A stretch of DNA of 64,000 nucleotides from Glycomyces sp. L485 (GTDB lineage: Bacteria; Actinomycetota; Actinomycetes; Mycobacteriales; Micromonosporaceae): the NCBI RefSeq assembly GCF_022548875.1, contig NZ_JAKZEW010000003.1, forward strand, positions 1 through 64,000, written 5' to 3'. Position 1 is the stretch's first letter. The number at the start of each line of letters is the position of its first letter. Below, in pieces: positions 62-64,000 of this stretch. The translations under genes and the position numbers were made by a program. The notes below the pieces were generated by a model. It saw only the letters and a program-made list of their open reading frames with translations, was not told the origin of the DNA and searched no databases.

Positions 62-99
62 GAAAAGAAAAACAGGTCAGAGGCTGAGCCTCTGACCTG
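62..99 (-). terminator. Intrinsic terminator, minus-strand direction
   Basis: A perfect 12-bp inverted repeat (73-84 and 88-99, 3-nt loop) is followed on the minus strand by a T-rich tract (complement of the A-rich 62-72). It could end minus-strand transcripts coming from the NACHT gene. The plus-strand flank has no T tract, so it is not a good plus-strand terminator. Confidence 0.65.
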
Positions 100-127
100 C
101 GAAAACGTCGAGCTAACCATCGCTACT

Positions 128-445
128 TTGAACACACCACCGCAGGTATACGGCCTGCTGGAACAGCTCTCAGGCCCCGACTCCGGCAAGAACGGCATTT
201 CGGGCCCCTCCTCGAACTCCAGCTCAACTGACGGATACACCGCCGAGGACGCCTCCGGGCGGATTCCCCGCCCCCTCCATCGACGCCTCTCGCTCGACCA
301 GCGAGCCGCGCTGGTCGCCGCCTTCGCCTCCGGCGCCAAGCAAAAAGACCTCGCCGCCGACTACGGCATCAGCATCCGCAGCGTCAAGCGGTTGGTCCGC
401 GCGGCTCGTAATGCAGGCGCAAACCCGCACCCCAACAACGAATAG
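128..445 (+). CDS. Small helix-turn-helix protein (Hin/resolvase-type HTH)
   Basis: A 105-residue protein. The N-terminal half is Ser/Gly/Pro-rich and probably disordered. Residues about 55-95 look like a resolvase or transposase-type HTH, with the pattern LDQRAALVAAF, KQKDLAADYGIS and SVKRLVRAAR. The first in-frame start is a TTG without an obvious Shine-Dalgarno sequence, so the N-terminus is uncertain; no in-frame ATG or GTG lies close upstream. It stands alone on the plus strand at the edge of the accessory island, tail-to-tail with the NACHT gene. It probably binds DNA, as a regulator or recombination accessory factor. The target is unknown. Confidence 0.55.
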   Translation: MNTPPQVYGLLEQLSGPDSGKNGISGPSSNSSSTDGYTAEDASGRIPRPLHRRLSLDQRAALVAAFASGAKQKDLAADYGISIRSVKRLVRAARNAGANPHPNNE

Positions 446-540
446 CGCTCACAGTCAGTCTTCGAAGTAACGAGGATCAACCTCTTTGAGGGTGCAGTGG
501 TGAGCCATGACCCCGATCCCGTGCTCAATCATGATCACCA

Positions 541-3500
541 CTAGAGAGACGTGCTCCGAAGGTCGAGTGCAGCAAGACGTAGTGGACCCTCATGGTTGGT
601 GAACGGGTTGTATACGACCGTATCCGGTGATGCCGATTCAAGGATGCGGGTGACCTGTGCCGACTCGGCTTGAGGTAGCGCGCCGACGTGCCGCAGCGCC
701 ACGGCGAATAGGTACATGCGTTGCAACAGTCGCGATTCCGGGTTTGCCTGTGCCACCGGGTCCCAAGGGCTCGCGAATATGGGACTCCCCTCACGGATGC
801 CCATTGGATCGCTGAGGGCAGCTTTGAACGCTTCAACGGCGTCCAGGTCCACTCTCAGTCGTCGCGTTAGCGGTCTGGTGAACATGGGCAGATACAAGTC
901 GGAGAGGCCCATACGGATTCGAGCGTCAGCGCGAGTCGCAATGGCGGGCAGGTCGTCCGGTCCAGCGGCACCAAGAGCGATGGCCAGTGTGTCTCCCCAA
1001 CCGCGATGCTCGCGGTTAGAAGGATCTGTTTGGAACCATTCTTCCAGCTGTTGGATAGCCACGACGGACACGGGATCGGTTGGAAACAACTGGGTATAGG
1101 CGGCTAGTTGCTCGTCTGCGTAATAGTGCCCCCTCAGTCCTATGGACCTGTTGCCCTCTGTGAGGATGGCCTTGAACAGGTCGTCGGGCACGTTCCAGCT
1201 GTCGCGATCCAGGATCGAGTCGAGGGCTTGGTTCGACCAGTGGTGCCCCATGATGCCAAGTCTTGATGCGAGCGCGCGAAGGACTTCTTCGCTTCCGTTG
1301 TTCTCGTGTTTGGCCCACAAGAGAAAGCGGCGATCTTTGCGGAGCGAATCATCGTTGTCGGCCTCACGGCGAATCATATCGGCGATGTCTGGGTAGCGGG
1401 ACGCGACTATTGCAAGCGCTGACATGACGTTGCGTCGCTTATCATTGGCTGTTTGGTTTCGGTTACCAAGCTTCCCATTCAGCCTATCGAAAACCTGTTC
1501 GCTGAAGTGTTCTGACAGTCGGGCCCAGTTCTCGGCGATGAGTTCTACGAGGATCCGGTCAACAGGACCATAATCTTCTGCGTCGAGCTGGACCCCGGGT
1601 GCATCTGGGGCGCCAATGGTTTCCTTGATACCGTCAATCAGGGTGAGGTCTCCGAGGATGAGCATGCCGATCCATGCCAGTCGTCGGCGTTCTTCGAGTT
1701 CAGGACCATAGGCGCACAGCTGGTCCTTGATCTCATGGTGTAGCCATTCCATCTGGGGTGTGAAGGTGTCTGGGCCAGTGAGGTTGTTGTGGGCCTGTTG
1801 ATCGCTCTTGATCGCTTGGACAAGCCCGACGAGGGCGGTGCGGCGAACCTCTGGGTCAGGTTCGTTCTTCCAATCCGCGAGCAGATCGACCAGGTCAGCT
1901 GCGGTCAGCGAGCTGCGTGCAAGTTCGAACGTCAAGACCTCGCGCAGTTCTGGTTCGAGATGTGCAAGCAGATCGAGGGTCTGATCGAGGATGCGCTGCG
2001 AAGACGGATCGGTCCTGCCGCAGTATGTCCTGAGGATGGCGGACGGGATGGTGTCGGGAATCCCTGAACTGATGGGCCTGGTGTCGCTGAGGGTCTTGCC
2101 GGCGAACTCCTGGACCGCTGGCTGCTCGGGCCATGCGCTGATAACGGCCGGAACGTGCCACATCAAGAAGGAAGGATCGACGCTCGTGCACAAGACCGCC
2201 AGCTCCGATGCGTCATAGCTGGCAAGCACTTCCTGCGCGGCGACGGATGGGGGACCTTGTTCGGCTGCGATGCCCAGGAATCGCTTCCAGGCAACAGCTG
2301 CGGATTCGGCCACAACGACACGGCCTTCACGCGAGTCGTTCTCATCGATGTGGCGCAGCAACGACACCAGTACGGCGAAGCCCTCCTGCGGGCCCAGGAC
2401 GTCGATGGCGACGCCCGCCATCGGCGCGGCAGTCGCGAAGTCTCCATGAAGCCGGTCGGCAAGCGCGGCGCGAACCTGTGCATCATCGAGGTAGTGCTCG
2501 ACGAGACGGCGGGCAGCCGCGTAGGGGCGTGGCTTGTCCAGACTGTCCAGCAGGACAGCCTTTGCGTCGCCGGAGGGCAGTGCAATGGCGAGGTCGGCTG
2601 CCCCAGAGACTGAAAGCCCTCCGAGTCCAGCCTCGATGGTCAGGCGGAGTGCCTCGGCGAACGCCGGATCATCCCGCCACCGCTGGGGAATCAATCCGAT
2701 GTCGTACAGAATAAGACCACGATCCTCCGGGTTCGCGAGTTTTGCGGCGGTCCACGACTTGAAACGGCCGTCTGCCTCAAAGGCGTTGCAGGCCAGATAC
2801 CATGCGAGAGCGCGATCACCGCCGTCCTGTCCGTTCGTCTCCAAGGTCTCAAGGGCAAAGTCCGCAACCGCTGCATCGCCCGCGGCAGCGAGGTTGACAA
2901 GCGCGGCGACAGGCCATGCCCCAGTCCCAATATCCTCTCGGTGCAGCAGCGTCAAGAGCCATTCGCGTTCTTCCTGCCGGTACGACCCCGCGTTCCCCGG
3001 TGCACTGCTCGTCTGCAGCACATGAAGGCTCGCTAGCCGAAGCGTCTTCGAAGGCTGGCGGCGCGCCCAGTCGATCAGTCGCGCAGTTTCAGAGGCATCA
3101 GACCAACCCTCGCCGAGGGCGAGGATCGCAGCGGCCTGAGTTCCCGAGGATGGCCCGCTTTCGGTCAACGCTACGAGTCGGTCCATCATCTGAGATTGAC
3201 CGCCGAATCGGCGGCCGATGGCTACCGCCGCGTTGATCTTCACCTCGTCTTCGGGATGTCGCAGGCCCCAAAACAGCCGCTCGGCCGCGACATTATCGGG
3301 GATGGCGAGATCACGCAGCGCCCACATGGATGGTGCCGGGTTGGGGCGAGGTGCCGTGAGCCAACGTTTCATGACCGGCAGGAGTTCGCCGCGCACCATC
3401 TGATTAGCGAGCGTGGCGGTCAGCGCCGTTAGAAGGTTCGCTCGATGACGTAGCGACGGATGGCGCTCGACCCGGTTGACAAGCCGACCGACGTAACTGG

Positions 3501-5754
3501 CCTGCGACTTCGGCATGAGCCTAACGCCTGCGGCGAGCGATTCGGCGAGCAGCTCGAAGCCATCGATATCGGCCCATTCCTGGCCACTCTCGTCGAGCGC
3601 CTCGGAGAGCAACCGTTCGGTGTCGTGGGGATTGACTTGCGCGCTCAGCAGCGCCAAGATCACGTCGCGCCAGGTCGGATCATGCACGAGTTCCTGTATT
3701 GCTTCGACCTGCCGACTCGTGGGCTGTGTGGCGAGGTACTGGCCAGCCAGGTGGTCGAGCACCACGCGGTGCAGGAACCCAAACGTTCCGGCGCCGTGGG
3801 ACACGATCAGTCCAAACTCGTCGGAGGCCATTGCGAGGACGTCATCGGCGATACTGCGGGCCTCGGCCTCCGGATAGCCGAGGACTTCGTCGTCGATCAT
3901 CGACTCGACTATGAGCTTGCGCATTCTCGCTTTGGTGACGGTGCCGGAGGGATCCCCGACGCGGAGCCTGTAGGCGACAGCGGCGAACAGAATGGCGGCG
4001 TTGGAGGCGTCTAGCACAGGTTCTTTCGCATACGAGGCACGTTGTCGCATCTGCGGATGCTTTTCGACCAACAGTTCGACAAGCCGGGTGTATATCTTGA
4101 ACCGTTGCCGCGGCAGAGGCTCACCCTGCCATTTGGTGGCCAACAGTGTCAGAAACAGAGGGATTCTGGAGAGTTCGGAGAGCTCCCGAGTGGCCTCAAC
4201 CTGGTCGAGGAAGGACTCGACGCTGGCACTCCATGGCGGCATGACGCCTGTTTCGGCTTCTGGAGGTGTGGCTGGCCGTAGGATTTCGGCCGTGATTGCC
4301 CGTCGCTGCCGATCGGTCAATGGTGTCAGTTCAGCTTGCTCCCAACGGAGACTCCAGTTCAGCCGACCGACCGCGTACGGACGCGTAGAGAGGATTGCTG
4401 ACGCCTGAGAATGGCCAAGGAAACCCTCAAGGGCCGCCAATGCTCGCTCGGCGCCACGGACACTGCTCCACTCGTCTACGCCATCGACGAGGAGCAGCAG
4501 GCGGTCGTCCCGCAGTGCGCGCTCAACCAATGGCCAAAGATGTGCGGTACTCTGCGCGCTCAGCCAGGCTTCGGCTGCGGAGATGAGCGACTTCTCGGTC
4601 GACTCCTCGAGGTGACGGCAGAGAAACCCGAACGGTAGCCAGATCGGCAGGTTGTCGGCGTGTTCCCGCTGTAGCTCGATCGACTGCGGTTGGGTCGAGA
4701 GCAAGTCCGTTGCGATGAACCTCAGGAGGCTGGACTTCCCTGCTCCCGGTCGCCCGATGAGCAGTCGATACTTGCCGCTAGCCAACCATTCATCCGCTGC
4801 GATAGTTCCTGCGGTAACTGGCGCGGCCAAGCTCTTGCGCTTGAGAAGGTGACCAGCGGATCTCAAGGACTGCCGGATGCTACCCAACCACGAAGCGGCC
4901 GAGTTGTCGGCGTCGAGCGTGCCCTCAGTGGGATGTGGCTCTTCGACGACCGGCTCGGGTTCTTCGGTGTCGACATGGTCAACCCTCTGGCAGTTGGGGT
5001 CGACATCGAGGATGATGAACGGGGCGCCTGAGCCTGGGTTTTCAACCGGGTGAACCCCGCCTTGGGCAGAGAAAACTGCACCATAGAGGTCGCGTAGCCC
5101 CGCACGCAGTTCTCTGCTGTCTTGGTGTGGCAGGTTATCCGACAGTGCACGGGCAGCCTCTGGGCCGCAGAAGCGCTCGACCCATGGTCGGCCGAAGAAG
5201 TCGTCGACGATGCGTGGATGGTCTTTTAGCAGGCTAGAGACCTCCTGTACACCCCACGGTACGAAGGTGATCTGGAGTCTCTCTAGCCGCTCGGTTTGCT
5301 CCCGGATCGCGGCGTCAAGCTTGGTGTCCTGCAAGTCAAATGAGGTGGCGAAGTAGAACGCTGCCGTCTTGTCGGCCCACTCGCCTTTTAGCAGGTCGTC
5401 GACCGCTTTCTTGATCTTGGCTGCGGTCAGATTCATGATTCGTCGGGATTGCAGGGTGATGTAGTCGCGGCCTTCAGACTCGCCACGGGTCAGGTCGAGC
5501 GGTAGTCGCGCGTAGGCGTCAATCCCGGCTTGCGCTTGGCCGGGCGTGCCAAAGAGCTTGGCATATTGGACCGGACGGATCGTGTGAAGCAGTCGGAGAA
5601 ACAGGCGTTCGGCGTCGGACCAGGCAAGATCACCGATGGGCAACACCTGGCCCTTAGTGTCGACCGGCGGCGCCGGGAGGGGGCCAGTGGGAGCAGACCA
5701 CAGGAACGCTTCAGCGGGACCCAGTCCGCCCGTCCGATCGGTGAACTCGCCCAT
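541..5754 (-). CDS. NACHT/STAND NTPase with N-terminal PD-(D/E)XK-like domain and HEAT-like C-terminus
   Basis: A 1737-residue single-gene STAND protein. Residues about 45-195 resemble the restriction-endonuclease-like domain at the front of many bacterial NACHT proteins: GQAQAGID (candidate metal-binding Asp79), then LQSRR (102-105) where a Q-x-K motif is expected, then LTAAKIKKAV. Residues 333-341 are a Walker A (GRPGAGKSS), 419-428 a Walker B (LLLVDGVDEW) and 456-460 STRPY, as in NACHT domains. From about residue 700 onward the protein is alpha-helical and HEAT/ARM-like, the usual sensor region. The ATG has a strong GGAGG just upstream. Known bacterial NACHT proteins of this layout defend against phage: sensing by the repeats, oligomerisation by NACHT, and DNA cleavage by the nuclease. 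That role here is inferred. Arg in place of the catalytic Lys leaves nuclease activity open. Confidence 0.85.
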   Translation of the reverse strand: MGEFTDRTGGLGPAEAFLWSAPTGPLPAPPVDTKGQVLPIGDLAWSDAERLFLRLLHTIRPVQYAKLFGTPGQAQAGIDAYARLPLDLTRGESEGRDYITLQSRRIMNLTAAKIKKAVDDLLKGEWADKTAAFYFATSFDLQDTKLDAAIREQTERLERLQITFVPWGVQEVSSLLKDHPRIVDDFFGRPWVERFCGPEAARALSDNLPHQDSRELRAGLRDLYGAVFSAQGGVHPVENPGSGAPFIILDVDPNCQRVDHVDTEEPEPVVEEPHPTEGTLDADNSAASWLGSIRQSLRSAGHLLKRKSLAAPVTAGTIAADEWLASGKYRLLIGRPGAGKSSLLRFIATDLLSTQPQSIELQREHADNLPIWLPFGFLCRHLEESTEKSLISAAEAWLSAQSTAHLWPLVERALRDDRLLLLVDGVDEWSSVRGAERALAALEGFLGHSQASAILSTRPYAVGRLNWSLRWEQAELTPLTDRQRRAITAEILRPATPPEAETGVMPPWSASVESFLDQVEATRELSELSRIPLFLTLLATKWQGEPLPRQRFKIYTRLVELLVEKHPQMRQRASYAKEPVLDASNAAILFAAVAYRLRVGDPSGTVTKARMRKLIVESMIDDEVLGYPEAEARSIADDVLAMASDEFGLIVSHGAGTFGFLHRVVLDHLAGQYLATQPTSRQVEAIQELVHDPTWRDVILALLSAQVNPHDTERLLSEALDESGQEWADIDGFELLAESLAAGVRLMPKSQASYVGRLVNRVERHPSLRHRANLLTALTATLANQMVRGELLPVMKRWLTAPRPNPAPSMWALRDLAIPDNVAAERLFWGLRHPEDEVKINAAVAIGRRFGGQSQMMDRLVALTESGPSSGTQAAAILALGEGWSDASETARLIDWARRQPSKTLRLASLHVLQTSSAPGNAGSYRQEEREWLLTLLHREDIGTGAWPVAALVNLAAAGDAAVADFALETLETNGQDGGDRALAWYLACNAFEADGRFKSWTAAKLANPEDRGLILYDIGLIPQRWRDDPAFAEALRLTIEAGLGGLSVSGAADLAIALPSGDAKAVLLDSLDKPRPYAAARRLVEHYLDDAQVRAALADRLHGDFATAAPMAGVAIDVLGPQEGFAVLVSLLRHIDENDSREGRVVVAESAAVAWKRFLGIAAEQGPPSVAAQEVLASYDASELAVLCTSVDPSFLMWHVPAVISAWPEQPAVQEFAGKTLSDTRPISSGIPDTIPSAILRTYCGRTDPSSQRILDQTLDLLAHLEPELREVLTFELARSSLTAADLVDLLADWKNEPDPEVRRTALVGLVQAIKSDQQAHNNLTGPDTFTPQMEWLHHEIKDQLCAYGPELEERRRLAWIGMLILGDLTLIDGIKETIGAPDAPGVQLDAEDYGPVDRILVELIAENWARLSEHFSEQVFDRLNGKLGNRNQTANDKRRNVMSALAIVASRYPDIADMIRREADNDDSLRKDRRFLLWAKHENNGSEEVLRALASRLGIMGHHWSNQALDSILDRDSWNVPDDLFKAILTEGNRSIGLRGHYYADEQLAAYTQLFPTDPVSVVAIQQLEEWFQTDPSNREHRGWGDTLAIALGAAGPDDLPAIATRADARIRMGLSDLYLPMFTRPLTRRLRVDLDAVEAFKAALSDPMGIREGSPIFASPWDPVAQANPESRLLQRMYLFAVALRHVGALPQAESAQVTRILESASPDTVVYNPFTNHEGPLRLAALDLRSTSL

Positions 5755-6143
5755 GGTCCTCCCTCTCGATCTCCCTCGACTCAGGCTACCGCCCTGAGCA
5801 CATGCAACCGATCCTCACATCAACGATCGATATGTGAGCGAGTCTGGCGTGTAATTCCCCTGACGGCCGCTGAACGCGTCACGCTTGCTCCGACAGGTCC
5901 CGATCCTATGTCGAGTCAAGGTCGACACTATTCATCGATAGGAGTATCGACAAGCTCGTGAACGATCGCTCCCTACCTCCATGTAGCCGATGGGCCTCGT
6001 CAAGTGGCTGTTCGGCACCCGTTGCGGCGGCGTGGACCTCTTCGACGGATGACACGGTGCTCCTCGGGTAGGGATGCTCCGGAGACTATGAGGGATCGTT
6101 CCTGGGCGGTAGGGGCCTGTCGGATCGTCGACAGCTCGTTGTC
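5755..6143. promoter_or_regulatory. 389-bp intergenic region with two inverted repeats upstream of the NACHT gene
   Basis: No convincing gene is visible. Two symmetric sites lie upstream of the NACHT start. CTCACAT at 5814-5820 is mirrored by ATGTGAG at 5832-5838 with 11 nt between. TCGATA at 5935-5940 is mirrored by TATCGA at 5945-5950 with 4 nt between. Either could be an operator. The region is less GC-rich than the chromosomal core to the right of the tRNA. No -10/-35 pair is assigned with confidence. Confidence 0.35.
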
Positions 6144-6626
6144 TCAGCCCCGCTCGGCACCTTCGGGCCAGATGACCGTTATGGGTACGCCTCGGCTTCG
6201 TGCGGCGGTGACCGCGTCGGCCGTGCCCCCGGTCTTCCAGGATGGCGAGGGCTGACCGTCCCAGACCGCGAGCATGCGGTCGACGCTGTCGAGCATCGCG
6301 GCATTGGCCTGGTCGTATGCCTGCATCGAGGATGCTTCGGCGACGTACCTGGTCGTATGCGCCTGTGCCACCAGCGTGTCGAACACCGGCAGGTGGGCCT
6401 GGGAGACGCGGGTGTCGCGGTAGTCGGGTGCAGGCAGCAGCGCTTCGAGGCGGCCTCCAGCATCGAGGACGGTCTGGGCGAAGATCGCGTCGGCGCCCTC
6501 GGCAAGGCAGGAGACGCCGACCAGCTCGGCCGGGTCGTACCGGGACAGCTCGTGCTTCAGCGCCGCCGCGACCAGGTCGACCGTCGCGGCGGTGAGGTTC
6601 ATGTGTCCGGTGATGCCGATCCGCAA
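6144..6626 (-). CDS. SLOG/Rossmann-type nucleotide-binding protein
   Basis: A 160-residue protein started at a TTG with AGGAG five bases upstream, which fits better than any longer frame. It opens with a beta strand and the GITGH nucleotide-binding loop. It continues with a CLAEGADAIFAQ segment, a LLPAPDYRD segment, and near the C-terminus MLAVWDGQP and GGTADAV followed by a VPITVIWP strand. This is the pattern of SLOG (DprA/LOG-like) proteins, which bind or process nucleotide-derived ligands. It starts 8 bp after the XRE regulator gene, so the two are very probably co-transcribed. The ligand, and any role in defence or signalling, are not visible from sequence. Confidence 0.75.
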   Translation of the reverse strand: MRIGITGHMNLTAATVDLVAAALKHELSRYDPAELVGVSCLAEGADAIFAQTVLDAGGRLEALLPAPDYRDTRVSQAHLPVFDTLVAQAHTTRYVAEASSMQAYDQANAAMLDSVDRMLAVWDGQPSPSWKTGGTADAVTAARSRGVPITVIWPEGAERG

Positions 6627-6634
6627 GGGTGCTC

Positions 6635-7831
6635 CTATCTCGATGCAAGCGCCGTTTGGAGCTCGGCCGCTTCCGGTACCGAGTCGTATCGGGCGGCGGC
6701 GACCTCGAGGCGGCGCAGGTAGTCCTCGACCCTGGCTGACTGTACCGTCGCCGCAGCGTCCAGGGCCTGCTGGGCGTAGCTGCTGCCGAGTTCGGGCTCG
6801 TCGGCCGCGAAATGGACGAGCGCGGTGTGGCCGAAGTTGAGCACCTGTCCGCGCGGGAGCGGCCGGGCAGTGGTCGCGGTCCGCTCGGCGGCCTCGACCG
6901 CGGCTGCCCGGTCGTCGACGAGGTGGAGGCATTGGGCTATACGACCGTCGAGCCATGCGCCGCCGACGTGGGAGATCCACTCGGGGCCGCCGGGCCGGTC
7001 AGCCCGGTCCATGTCCCGCTGCGACCTGGTGATGAGCCGCGCGACCTCGGGGCTGTCGCCGAGCAGGGCGTGCCCGTGGGCGAGCGCCATGCGCGCCTCA
7101 CCGACGAGGGCCGGGTCCCCGATGGTCTCGGCGGCGTCGAGGGCGGCCTGCCCGGCATTCGCAGCTTCGTCCCCGTCGCCCACGATCGCGGCTTGGTTCG
7201 AGGTGGCAATGATGGTCTCGCACGCCAACGACGCATCGTCGGCCTCCTCCGCTAGCTCGAGCGCCTGGGCGAAATACACCCTCGCCGAGCCCTGGACTCC
7301 GGCGTCGAACGCCGACCAGCCGGCGAGCAGCGCCAGCTCCGCGACCGAGGACACGAGCTGGTTGCGGATCGTCGGCGCGATCGGTCCGGCGAGCATCGGC
7401 ATGGCAACCTGCTGGAGGTAGGCAACGATCGAGTGCGTCGCGTGGGTACCGCCGTGATGGCTGTCGAGCGAGCGGAGTGTCGCGGTCATGGACTGGACGA
7501 TCTCGAGCTGCGGCGTACCCACCCGGCCTCCGGCGGTGTCGGAGTCAGGGATGAGTGCGCCCATCAGCGCGAGGGATTGCAGGACGATTCTTCGGCGCAC
7601 GCCGCTCTCTCCACAGGTCGCAAGGTCAGCTAGAAGCCCATGCGTCCCAAGCTGTTGCTCGAGGTCACGCATGAGCGCAGGCCCCGGTGACTTGTGGCCG
7701 TTCTCGATGTTCCGCAGATGAGGCTCTGAGGTGTGGCAAGCCTGGGCGAACTCGGGGCGCTCGCGTCCGGCGCGCTCACGGAGCGAGCGGACGATGCGCC
7801 CAAAGATATGGCGATCCTCCTGCGTCGGCAT
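6635..7831 (-). CDS. XRE-family regulator with C-terminal TPR-like region
   Basis: A 398-residue protein; ATG with AGGAG seven bases upstream. Residues about 9-62 form a Cro/C1-type HTH (RSLRERAGRERPEFAQ, then HLRNIENGHKSPGP). Residues about 120-395 are alanine-rich helical pairs typical of TPR ligand- or peptide-sensing regions in actinobacterial XRE regulators. It is the first gene of a two-gene unit with the SLOG protein. Its start lies only about 30 bp from where homology to the truncated recombinase begins, so its promoter overlaps the recombinase remnant. It probably regulates its own operon; the effector is unknown. Confidence 0.8.
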   Translation of the reverse strand: MPTQEDRHIFGRIVRSLRERAGRERPEFAQACHTSEPHLRNIENGHKSPGPALMRDLEQQLGTHGLLADLATCGESGVRRRIVLQSLALMGALIPDSDTAGGRVGTPQLEIVQSMTATLRSLDSHHGGTHATHSIVAYLQQVAMPMLAGPIAPTIRNQLVSSVAELALLAGWSAFDAGVQGSARVYFAQALELAEEADDASLACETIIATSNQAAIVGDGDEAANAGQAALDAAETIGDPALVGEARMALAHGHALLGDSPEVARLITRSQRDMDRADRPGGPEWISHVGGAWLDGRIAQCLHLVDDRAAAVEAAERTATTARPLPRGQVLNFGHTALVHFAADEPELGSSYAQQALDAAATVQSARVEDYLRRLEVAAARYDSVPEAAELQTALASR

Positions 7832-7862
7832 CACTTCGCTCCTGAAGGAATCAAACGGAATC

Positions 7863-9380
<1,518 letters not shown>

Positions 9381-10846: not shown

Positions 10847-11519
10847 TGATGTCCCTGTTGTTGAGCAAAGCCAAGATCTTCGCGACGACCTCCACGATCG
10901 GCAGCTCCGTAGAGTCGATGACCGTGGCGCCCTTCGGCGCTTCCAGCGGTTTCGTCGTCTTCGAGTCTGCCCCGTCGCGGCGCGCGATGTCAGCCTTAGT
11001 GGCCGACTCGTCAGCCCCGACCTCCAGCGCGCGGCGCTTCGCGCGGGCCTCGGGATCGGCGGTGAGGTAGACCTTCACGTTGGCCTCGGGTGCGACGACC
11101 TCGATGATGTCGCGGCCCTCGACGACGATGCCCTTCTTCGCCTCGGAGATGATGCGCTGCTGCTCGGCGATGAGGTGCTTGCGGACGGCCTTGTTTCCGG
11201 CCACCGCCGAGACCGCCTTCGTCACGTCATCGGTTCGGATCTCGAGGCTCGCGTCCTCGCCGTCGAGGCGGGTGTACGGGTCCTCGGGGGCGGTCCCGAA
11301 TTCGAGCTTGGCGTCCTTGACCGCCTTGGTGACCTGCGCGGTCTGCGAGGGGTCGACGCCGGCTTTGAGCACCGCGAGCGTGGCGGCGCGGTACATCGCA
11401 CCGGTGTCGAGGTAGGCGGCGTCAATAGCGGTCGCGAGTGTCTTGGAGACGGTGGATTTGCCCGCCCCGGACGGGCCGTCGATTGCGACGACCGGTGCGC
11501 TCTTCGTGTGCTCAGGCAC
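10839..11519 (-). CDS. cmk: Cytidylate kinase
   Basis: 226 residues. The Walker A GPSGAGKS lies at about 15-22 and is followed by [10 protein letters not shown], the CMP kinase nucleotide-monophosphate signature. GRDI near residue 117 and the [11 protein letters not shown] lid region also fit. It phosphorylates CMP and dCMP to the diphosphates with ATP. GTG start with GGAG seven bases upstream. It overlaps the downstream der start by 8 bp; a cmk-der pair is the normal actinobacterial order. Confidence 0.96.
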
Positions 11520-62890: not shown

Positions 62891-62964
62891 GGCCCGGTAT
62901 TCCAATTGGCAGAGAAGACGGATTCAAAACCCGTACAGTGTGGGTTCGAGTCCCACCCGGGCTA
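62891..62964 (+). tRNA. Atypical tRNA, anticodon CAA (Leu by anticodon), short variable arm
   Basis: 74 nt: acceptor GGCCCGG/CCGGGCT (first pair G-U), a weak D stem, anticodon loop TTCAAAA (anticodon CAA), variable loop ACAGT of five bases, T stem GTGGG/CCCAC with TTCGAGT. A true tRNA-Leu has a long variable arm; this one does not, and its anticodon stem has a mismatch next to the loop. It resembles the non-canonical tRNAs seen in several actinobacteria. CCA is not encoded. Confidence 0.75.
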
Positions 62965-62994
62965 CTGGGGAGCATCCCAGCTCAAGCTACAGAG

Positions 62995-63380: not shown

Positions 63381-64000
63381 CTATGCGGCCACTCGGGACC
63401 CTTGACTCACAGCCCAAGCCATCCGGCCACGTGCACGCACGTTCACGGCGGCTATGACGTCGGCCGGTCCAGCGAGACCGCACCCACGACATTCAAATCT
63501 GTCTCTCGATCTTCGGTTGGCCCGTTCCGCGTGGTGGCACAGCGGGCACATCTGTGAGGTGTGCCGAGCGTCCACGACGACGACCGGCACACCCGCCCGC
63601 TTCGCCTTGTACGCGATGTGTTGCGCCAACTGGTAGAACGGCCAGTTCGAGATCCTGCCGCGCTGGGACCGGGTGAGCCGTACCCGCTCGCGGATGCCCT
63701 CAAGGTCTTCGAGGGCGATCCCGCGACCGGTGCGTTCGGCCGCCGACACGATCGCTTTCGCTATCTTGTGATTGGTGTGCGCCGCGTGCCGCGACTCCCG
63801 CCGCGCCCGCTGCTTGAGTCGCCGCTTCGCGGCCTTGGTCTGCTTGGCCTGCAACTCAGCGCGGGCCCGCGCCATCCGACGCCGGTACCGCTCCAGGCCC
63901 TTGCCTTGGAAGTTCACCTCATCCGAAGTGGTGGCGAGGTTGACGACGCCTCGATCCACACCGATGAAATCGACCGGGTCCGGCATCGCCTCGGCCTCGG
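63381..64000 (-). CDS. tnpB: TnpB (IS605 OrfB-type RNA-guided nuclease), C-terminal part, cut by window end
   Basis: At least 205 residues, open at the 64000 edge. Counting from the first in-window Met, Asp11 in GVDRGVVNLATT is RuvC-I, Glu93 in IALEDLEGIRE is RuvC-II, and Asp176 in GPADVIAAVNV is RuvC-III. The zinc ribbon Cys147, Cys150, Cys166 and Cys169 is intact. Catalytic residues are therefore present. Full length would be 370-400 residues, so the rest must lie outside the window. No tnpA is visible here. Confidence 0.9.
   Translation of the reverse strand, partial: EAEAMPDPVDFIGVDRGVVNLATTSDEVNFQGKGLERYRRRMARARAELQAKQTKAAKRRLKQRARRESRHAAHTNHKIAKAIVSAAERTGRGIALEDLEGIRERVRLTRSQRGRISNWPFYQLAQHIAYKAKRAGVPVVVVDARHTSQMCPLCHHAERANRRSRDRFECRGCGLAGPADVIAAVNVRARGRMAWAVSQGSRVAA

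Follow-up and report, generated by a model that had tools for sequence, protein, structure and literature searches.

The closest described relatives of the system treated here are the NACHT proteins bNACHT25 and bNACHT32 and the Avs proteins. For bNACHT25/32, the relevant passages of the published account describe that the D48A substitution leads to loss of phage defense and that DNA is degraded on infection (PMC12169576). The nucleases of Avs1-4 are described, in the part of the source dealing with them, to cut the genomes of both the phage and the host once terminase, portal or a further phage protein has been sensed (PMC12931631). Here, we analyzed a stretch of 64,000 nucleotides from Glycomyces sp. 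L485 (contig NZ_JAKZEW010000003.1; hereafter the window), which starts at base 1 of the contig and carries near its beginning a gene for a giant NACHT protein of 1737 residues. From the nucleotide sequence and a structural model, this gene is real and intact and most likely encodes a nuclease-headed defense protein resembling the nucleotide-binding leucine-rich repeat (NLR) proteins, to which immune receptors of animals and plants belong. We consider it likely that this NLR-like protein acts as a single-gene defense system and that its gene forms part of the cargo of a decayed tRNA-Pro island.

The C-terminal region of the protein, which consists partly of HEAT repeats, would recognize something made during infection by a phage or other foreign DNA. 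On recognition, the NACHT module would be freed, bind nucleotide and oligomerize, and oligomerization would gather the N-terminal Mrr-like PD-(D/E)XK domains, which would then cut DNA. Cutting would bring the infection to an end, and the cell would probably be lost with it. The sequence of sensor binding, NACHT assembly and head activation is proposed by analogy with bNACHT25/32 and Avs1-4.

A giant NACHT protein with a predicted nuclease head

An earlier reading made from the sequence only (the sequence-only reading) had assigned the protein to the NACHT NTPases based on its Walker A, Walker B and STRPY motifs, and all three motifs were found (Table 1). The Pfam NACHT profile matched with 42.6 bits (cut-off 26.7), and the Walker A motif was accompanied by a Walker B motif of the DGxDE type and, downstream, by a motif of the STRP type, which we take to be sensor-1-like. 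The same reading had pointed to an N-terminal block of GQAQAGID, LQSRR and LTAAKIKKAV, which was located at residues 72-79, 101-105 and 109-118, respectively. In the full-length alignment of the query with 11 relatives of 40-69% identity, ten residues of the N-terminal domain (E49, G69, G72, Q73, Q75, G77, D79, Q102, R104 and R105) were invariant in 12 of 12 sequences, which argues against a chance occurrence of the motifs.

The fold of the N-terminal domain was predicted with AlphaFold2 from 39 diverse N-terminal domains. The resulting model had a predicted local distance difference test (pLDDT) score of 87.6 and a predicted template modeling score of 0.81, with the secondary structure H30-44 E49-52 E65-68 E83-89 H96-108 E115-122. 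An earlier input of 12 close sequences (residues 1-310) reached a pLDDT of 41 and was not used. A fold search of BFVD returned two matches at E ≤ 0.001, both annotated as "restriction endonuclease" (4.3e-4 and 9.1e-4), and in the PDB the first match was Avs4 bound to a phage portal (E 0.013), followed by PspGI (E 0.064). The sequence-only reading had tied its nuclease-like N-terminus to such a restriction endonuclease fold, and this fold was indeed predicted.

At the sequence level, six distant proteins sharing the N-terminal domain were searched for the Pfam family Mrr_cat, which matched one protein above the cut-off (L039; 21.3 versus 21 bits) and a second one below it (L041; 17.2 bits), and was absent from the other four. 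None of the 12 close members matched Mrr_cat directly, and a Pfam search with alignments of the N-terminal domain gave no nuclease for the query itself. Because one distant N-terminal domain exceeds the Mrr_cat cut-off, the head of the query is predicted to be an Mrr-like PD-(D/E)XK domain that is linked to Mrr_cat through distant relatives. Matches of the N-terminal domain to bone marrow stromal antigen 2 in the PDB (E 0.008-0.1) look spurious, and a match of the domain alignment to LlaBIII (E 0.86) was not counted.

For the part behind the NACHT module, about 1000 HEAT-like residues had been proposed. This held for one significant HEAT_2 stretch (residues 825-913); beyond it, there were only a weak stretch at residues 1289-1313 (Pfam, E 0.12) and matches of designed alphaRep chains around residues 810-880 (best E 5e-4).

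Lysine and arginine at the catalytic position

When the query was checked for the PD-(D/E)XK motif, E49, D79 and Q102 were as expected and the Lys was replaced by Arg104. Glu49, Gln75, Gly77, Asp79 and Gln102 were invariant in all 39 rows of the N-terminal domain alignment, while the position two after Gln102 was occupied by Lys in 21 rows and by Arg in 18. All 18 Arg rows carried a further Arg at the next position (QxRR), compared with 9 of the 21 Lys rows, an excess that is only a hint as the rows are related. The three columns following Gln102 were removed before a tree was built, and on this tree Lys and Arg were exchanged five times, at least four of which were forced by well-supported branches; some of these changes may have gone in either direction. 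The motif count did not include the partial sequences L110 (QCKR) and L030/L045 (QSRR, thus Arg), or the fragments L033/L046, L111, L114-L116, L118 and L119, which showed no more than the beginning of the domain or lacked a visible motif.

The clade of the query had Arg in 13 of 13 rows (the 12 aligned sequences and L093, the same gene as L120), and Lys was found in its full-length sister group (L094-L096, which correspond to L121-L123). Arg was also present in an outlier NACHT protein (L037). The plasmid-borne homologs read QCKR (Pantoea and Deinococcus aetherius), QAKC (Enterobacter) and QSKR (two Streptomyces), and the Deinococcus gobiensis sequence, whose row failed on the preceding motif, was QCKR by eye. 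Based on the row counts, the changes on the tree and the plasmid homologs, Lys is widespread across the family at large, with Arg recurring as an alternative. The suggestion that Arg in place of the nuclease Lys marks a subgroup agrees with this distribution.

The Lys has been explained as positioning the attacking water, and in some families it is shifted to motif IV, often as Arg; the passages concerned contain no statement on Arg at the motif III place itself (PMC1913061). With the Lys replaced, nuclease activity may be lost or altered, and the occurrence of Arg in every member of the query clade and in L030/L045 could indicate that the Arg subgroup is a pseudo-nuclease, which binds nucleic acid or a partner without cutting, so that signaling or sequestration gives the phenotype. 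We consider this unlikely, as a dead site would be expected to lose its carboxylates, whereas E49, D79 and Q102 are retained in the 18 Arg rows as in all others. In addition, the repeated exchange of Lys and Arg suggests that Arg is a workable substitute, and the query keeps 98 of the 98 family-invariant sites of the N-terminal domain. In the rows seen, the Arg form is always QxRR, and the exchange recurs in Mrr-like heads of NTPase-linked proteins. Rather than a dead enzyme, the Arg subgroup might, tentatively, be a functionally distinct nuclease class with altered chemistry suited to very large sensors whose accidental firing has to be avoided; such chemistry could mean that the head cuts more slowly or under tighter control, that it nicks, or that it attacks another kind of nucleic acid. 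As the full-length sister group keeps Lys, the two groups form a natural matched pair in which the role of the catalytic Lys of an immune nuclease can be addressed.

Relatives and distribution

Named genomes yielded ten full-length orthologs, whose best segments were 58-69% identical to the query, with hosts including Streptomyces, Actinomadura, Planotetraspora, Micromonospora and Actinoplanes, presumably mostly filamentous genera. Two further full-length relatives were L002 and L003; since L002 and L018 belong to the same genome, 12 sequences were aligned (the query, the ten named ones and L003). Among 101 genomes searched, including that of the query, matches at E ≤ 0.001 were obtained in 12 and a full-length copy in three, while the 20 listed congeners gave none. 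A large genus represented by 295 genomes contained 24 with a match to the N-terminal domain, fragments counted, and four full-length relatives were obtained from it: L120, which falls into the Arg group of the query, and L121-L123, which form the sister group and align over residues 19-1735 with 760-777 bits. Homologs were also located on plasmids of Streptomyces, Pantoea, Enterobacter and Deinococcus. A megablast search of E. coli genomes with the DNA of the Enterobacter relative gave no match.

In the full-length tree, the query grouped with the sequences from Streptomyces, Actinomadura and Planotetraspora, apart from those of Micromonosporaceae (L018, L019, L022 and L023), although one of these members, L018 from Virgisporangium (G044), belongs to the query's own family. 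The conflict of the tree with taxonomy and the patchy distribution of the gene indicate, at the level of sequence, horizontal spread. This bears on the possibility that the protein serves a host program, such as the development of multicellular actinomycetes or their programmed cell death, instead of defense against mobile DNA. STAND-NTPase (signal transduction ATPases with numerous domains) conflict systems are described as prominent in multicellular prokaryotes in the part of PMC7159879 that treats them, and the named hosts of the ten orthologs are all actinomycetes. A host program is nevertheless very improbable given the three full-length copies in 101 genomes and their absence from the listed congeners, the homologs on Pantoea, Enterobacter and Deinococcus plasmids, and a tree that does not follow taxonomy.

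Compared with the Lys sister group, identity of the query was 46-48% in the N-terminal domain, 23% in the linker (residues 206-320), 47-48% in the NACHT module, 36-37% in residues 491-760, 32-33% in residues 761-1250 and 23-24% in residues 1251-1737. Such a gradient is as expected if effector and switch are conserved and the sensor diverges.

Several relatives deviated from this layout. A 1749-residue ORF (open reading frame) of L040 (6934-12180) combined TIR, the same restriction endonuclease domain (with Lys) and NB-ARC, and thus two effector heads on one STAND protein. Two short ORFs, L134 8293-9471 (393 residues) and L135 8348-9328 (327 residues), matched the giant protein in its C-terminal region only (profile positions 1357-1693 and 1518-1710, respectively), which suggests that they are stand-alone sensors or remnants; the former adjoins two long ORFs, one of which has a TIR-like start by eye. 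On the D. aetherius plasmid (L128 5974-10841), the head, annotated as restriction endonuclease, and the NACHT body were two adjacent genes, a split that may be a frameshift because the endonuclease ORF matches the domain only up to residue 148 of 229. On the D. gobiensis plasmid (L133 4007-8104), the N-terminal domain was accompanied by matches resembling tetratricopeptide repeats (TPR), and no NACHT match was found.

Gene neighborhoods

A PADLOC scan at 1e-8 was performed on 107 neighbor ORFs from ten ortholog loci, 20 of which (none from L018) were followed up singly. At least one of the neighbor ORFs was matched by 39 PADLOC families (25 listed). Neighbors at L023 were HamA (E 5e-79), HamB (1e-260, cut by the locus end) and STAND_TPR, and those at L021 were TerY, PP2C and STK_OB. 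Further neighbors were PDC-S48 (L015), a RecD-like helicase (L017) and a weak match to mREase_IV (L020, 2e-13), and PDC-S18 was matched among the 107 ORFs with an E-value of 2e-142. The plasmid copy of Enterobacter hormaechei had a phospholipase of a cyclic oligonucleotide-based antiphage signaling system (CBASS) and two TIR genes at a distance of 6-8 kb, with two transposase genes between, and the D. gobiensis protein begins ~140 bp past type I restriction-modification genes.

As a control, 37 core ORFs of the window were scanned. They matched 17 PADLOC families with a best E-value of 1.2e-37 and yielded no complete multi-gene system. The matches included that of Der to LeoA, and also those to the single-gene or CRISPR-type models SduA (6e-11), Csx1 (7e-28) and Cas12f (5e-34). 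The control set is smaller than the test set and comes from one genome, and therefore gives no rate. The ORF at 63381-63986 of the window, near a tRNA-Leu at 62891-62965, is probably behind the control matches of the Cas12f/TnpB type.

When the flanking ORFs of 16 loci (L014, L016, L017 and L018 being short on one side) were compared all against all, no family occurred in more than two loci except the NACHT gene itself. The families common to two loci joined L016 with L020, L019 with L023, and L121 with L123. As no partner gene recurs, the giant NACHT gene most likely acts as a single-gene system. The SLOG-like and NsdA-like neighbors of the query (Table 1) were considered as partners in a system of two or three genes; this was rejected, as neither recurs beside the orthologs of these loci, and a conserved chromosomal housekeeping gene was likewise considered and rejected. 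Co-location with known systems and a patchy, horizontal distribution, as for anti-phage defense genes, were both observed, while several loci were without defense neighbors.

The proposal of a probable single-gene phage defense is supported indirectly, by sequence comparison, through the neighbors, the patchy spread and the lack of a recurring partner. Neither are the homologs confined to conserved non-defense loci, an outcome that would have spoken against it: some occur beside Hachiman, TerY-P, PDC-S48 or CBASS/TIR genes, some are plasmid-borne, and the congeners listed lack the gene.

A number of observations weigh against a working defense protein at this locus. The PDB fold search gave nothing at E ≤ 0.001, with unrelated enzymes following at similar E-values, and neither the whole protein nor the N-terminal domain alignments gave a sequence match of this domain to a solved nuclease in the PDB; moreover, the catalytic Lys is replaced. 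PADLOC did not recognize the giant protein (best E 0.009), gave no match for the followed-up neighbors of L014, L016, L019 and L022, and no neighbor was annotated as defense on the D. aetherius, Pantoea and two Streptomyces plasmids. No homolog was found in 50,697 phage records (tblastn) or in IMG/VR (scan with six exact 8-residue peptides), and thus no phage-borne copy supports a link. The island of the query has decayed. Among the 12 orthologs, the query has diverged furthest, with the longest branch of the close orthologs (0.38 versus 0.06-0.22) and the highest number of changes unique to one sequence, which affect 42 of the 677 sites at which all others agree. By region, these amounted to 0 of 98 sites in the N-terminal domain, 7 of 101 in residues 321-490 and 12 of 128 in residues 491-760.

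The long terminal branch, the unique changes and the truncated recombinase nearby would also fit a family that is defensive with a query copy that is decaying and no longer works, which is compatible with the preferred explanation as far as the family is concerned. For the query itself this is rather unlikely, as its 1737 codons are free of stops, the Walker motifs and nuclease residues are intact, and a Shine-Dalgarno-like site precedes the gene. The gene is still best read as encoding a nuclease-headed defense protein.

The tRNA-Pro island

The sequence-only reading had placed the gene in an island next to a tRNA and a dead recombinase. Both were recovered, the tRNA-Pro 3.6 kb and the recombinase, which is without the N-terminal part bearing the RVST serine motif, 2.0 kb from the NACHT gene (Table 1). 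Relatives of the recombinase in G009 and G012 keep this motif, and the recombinases of the window, G009 and G012 share the same terminal peptide, which is read from the tRNA. The island extends over roughly 9.2 kb, with a GC (guanine plus cytosine) content of 0.64 over 106-9305 versus 0.69 over 9476-64000.

Of the 22 genomes of the genus, 21 have the tRNA-Pro next to der, the exception (G020) being a fragmented genome. The 43-bp 3' core of the tRNA is repeated exactly at a distance of 17 kb in G019 and with 42 of 43 positions at a distance of 33 kb in G002. The genus thus has an integration site at tRNA-Pro(ggg), with der as its neighbor. Between the repeats of G002 lie AbiEi (4e-92), AbiEii (8e-108), a GajA-like ORF (2e-50, mainly residues 330-500) and a GajB-like ORF (1e-30), so that at least one congener holds known defense cargo at this site. 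Six more long ORFs in the G002, G019 and G009 islands gave one weak match (PDC-M54A) and five none (PADLOC, 1e-6). Very long ORFs were seen in the tRNA-Pro islands of L079 (9864-14030, 1388 residues) and L080 (6742-11964, 1740 residues), without a PADLOC match at 1e-6; by eye, we take their N-termini to resemble double-stranded DNA nuclease (DUF4297-like) heads.

At the distal end, positions 63-117 of the window matched the tRNA-Pro flank of G002 with 82% over 55 bp, which places the boundary near 107-117. A second copy of the tRNA-Pro 3' core was not found in the query's own genome, where the search gave real tRNAs only, and the distal end is therefore placed by the flank match. When the tRNA was aligned locally to positions 61-200, the score was 22, no better than for shuffled sequences (mean 20). 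The small ORF at this end has counterparts in L078 (near 11032-11325) and L087 (near 2845-3303), and in the window as in these congeners it is preceded by a sequence like GTCGGGCTAA, resembling the start of the tRNA core.

Table 1. Features of the NACHT gene and of the surrounding island in the window.
Feature	Position	Strand	Basis or remark
Giant restriction endonuclease-NACHT-HEAT STAND gene, 1737 residues, single intact frame from ATG	541..5754	-	ORF and full-length relatives
Shine-Dalgarno-like AGGGAGG, 3 bases ahead of ATG (rather close)	5758..5764	-	Sequence
N-terminal Mrr-like PD-(D/E)XK domain (predicted), residues 16-205	5140..5709	-	Distant Mrr_cat matches, alignment, predicted fold
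Glu49, candidate motif I acidic residue	5608..5610	-	Invariant 39/39
GQAQAGID, residues 72-79, including Asp79	5518..5541	-	Asp79 invariant 39/39
QSRR, residues 102-105; Arg104 at the catalytic Lys position	5440..5451	-	Alignment; Lys in 21/39 rows
NACHT NTPase core, residues 331-491	4282..4764	-	Pfam PF05729, E 7.3e-11
Walker A GRPGAGKS, residues 334-341	4732..4755	-	G334, P336, G337, G339, K340, S341 invariant 12/12
Walker B LLLLVDGVDEW, residues 419-429	4468..4500	-	D424, G425, D427, E428 invariant 12/12
STRPY, residues 456-460	4375..4389	-	R458, P459 invariant 12/12
HEAT_2 stretch, residues 825-913	3016..3282	-	Pfam PF13646, E 3e-7
C-terminal region, residues 761-1737, putative sensor	544..3474	-	Most divergent part apart from linker 206-320
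Possible SLOG-fold small protein, island cargo, tentative	6144..6743	-	YpsA, E 0.01, below cut-off
NsdA-like helix-turn-helix (HTH)-TPR regulator, island cargo, no shown link to the NACHT gene	6635..7936	-	NF053720, E 2.4e-70, above cut-off
Truncated large serine recombinase, 3' end reading into tRNA	7731..9341	+	
tRNA-Pro(ggg)	9306-9380		
43-bp attachment core in the 3' part of tRNA-Pro(ggg)	9306..9348	-	Copies in G019 and G002
Small HTH protein, distal island end	128..445	+	Similar ORF in similar place in two congeners
Putative distal island end: displaced tRNA-Pro 3' flank (inverted repeat) and 11 tRNA-core-like bases (107-117, 9/11 by eye)	63..117	+	

Comparison with known systems

Proteins of this kind have been published before, as Mrr-NACHT fusions and as nuclease-bearing bNACHT defense proteins; the giant, Arg-bearing actinobacterial subgroup is new. 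The Mrr-NACHT fusion noted in 2007 has the same domain pairing and is mentioned there in one line, which gives no length, sensor or motif (PMC1913061, in the passage concerned). The homologs annotated as "NACHT domain-containing protein" on plasmids of Streptomyces, Pantoea, Enterobacter and D. aetherius share the N-terminal domain and NACHT with the query, and differ in that five of five read-out motifs are QxK and that the C-termini of the Pantoea, Enterobacter and D. aetherius proteins align only partly. With the antiphage NACHT protein EruA (NCBIfam NF058535), the shared part covers some of the NACHT module and the region behind it, residues 418-681 of the query (E 4.8e-10); the query scored 38.2 bits against a cut-off of 1000 on this profile of 1318 positions, and no second stretch was reported. 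Among the papers searched, none treated EruA together with antiphage activity.

The PADLOC library includes models for Avs, and no Avs family was among the matches of the giant protein, which were only mad8 and PtuA at E 0.009-0.06. The likeness to Avs4 (AVAST type 4) consists of the first PDB fold match of the N-terminal domain, with an E-value of 0.013 only. Closest in architecture are bNACHT25 and bNACHT32 (clade 6), which like the query have an N-terminal PD-(D/E)XK DNase effector, a central NACHT and a C-terminal sensing part, as described in passages of PMC12169576. In this comparison, made by description only, they differ in that their C-terminal domain is NCH1 and their critical Asp is Asp48, whereas the query has Asp79, Arg in place of Lys, and ~980 residues with HEAT stretches after residue 760. 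The tests of bNACHT25/32 were done in E. coli, and to these proteins the query adds a giant actinobacterial branch.

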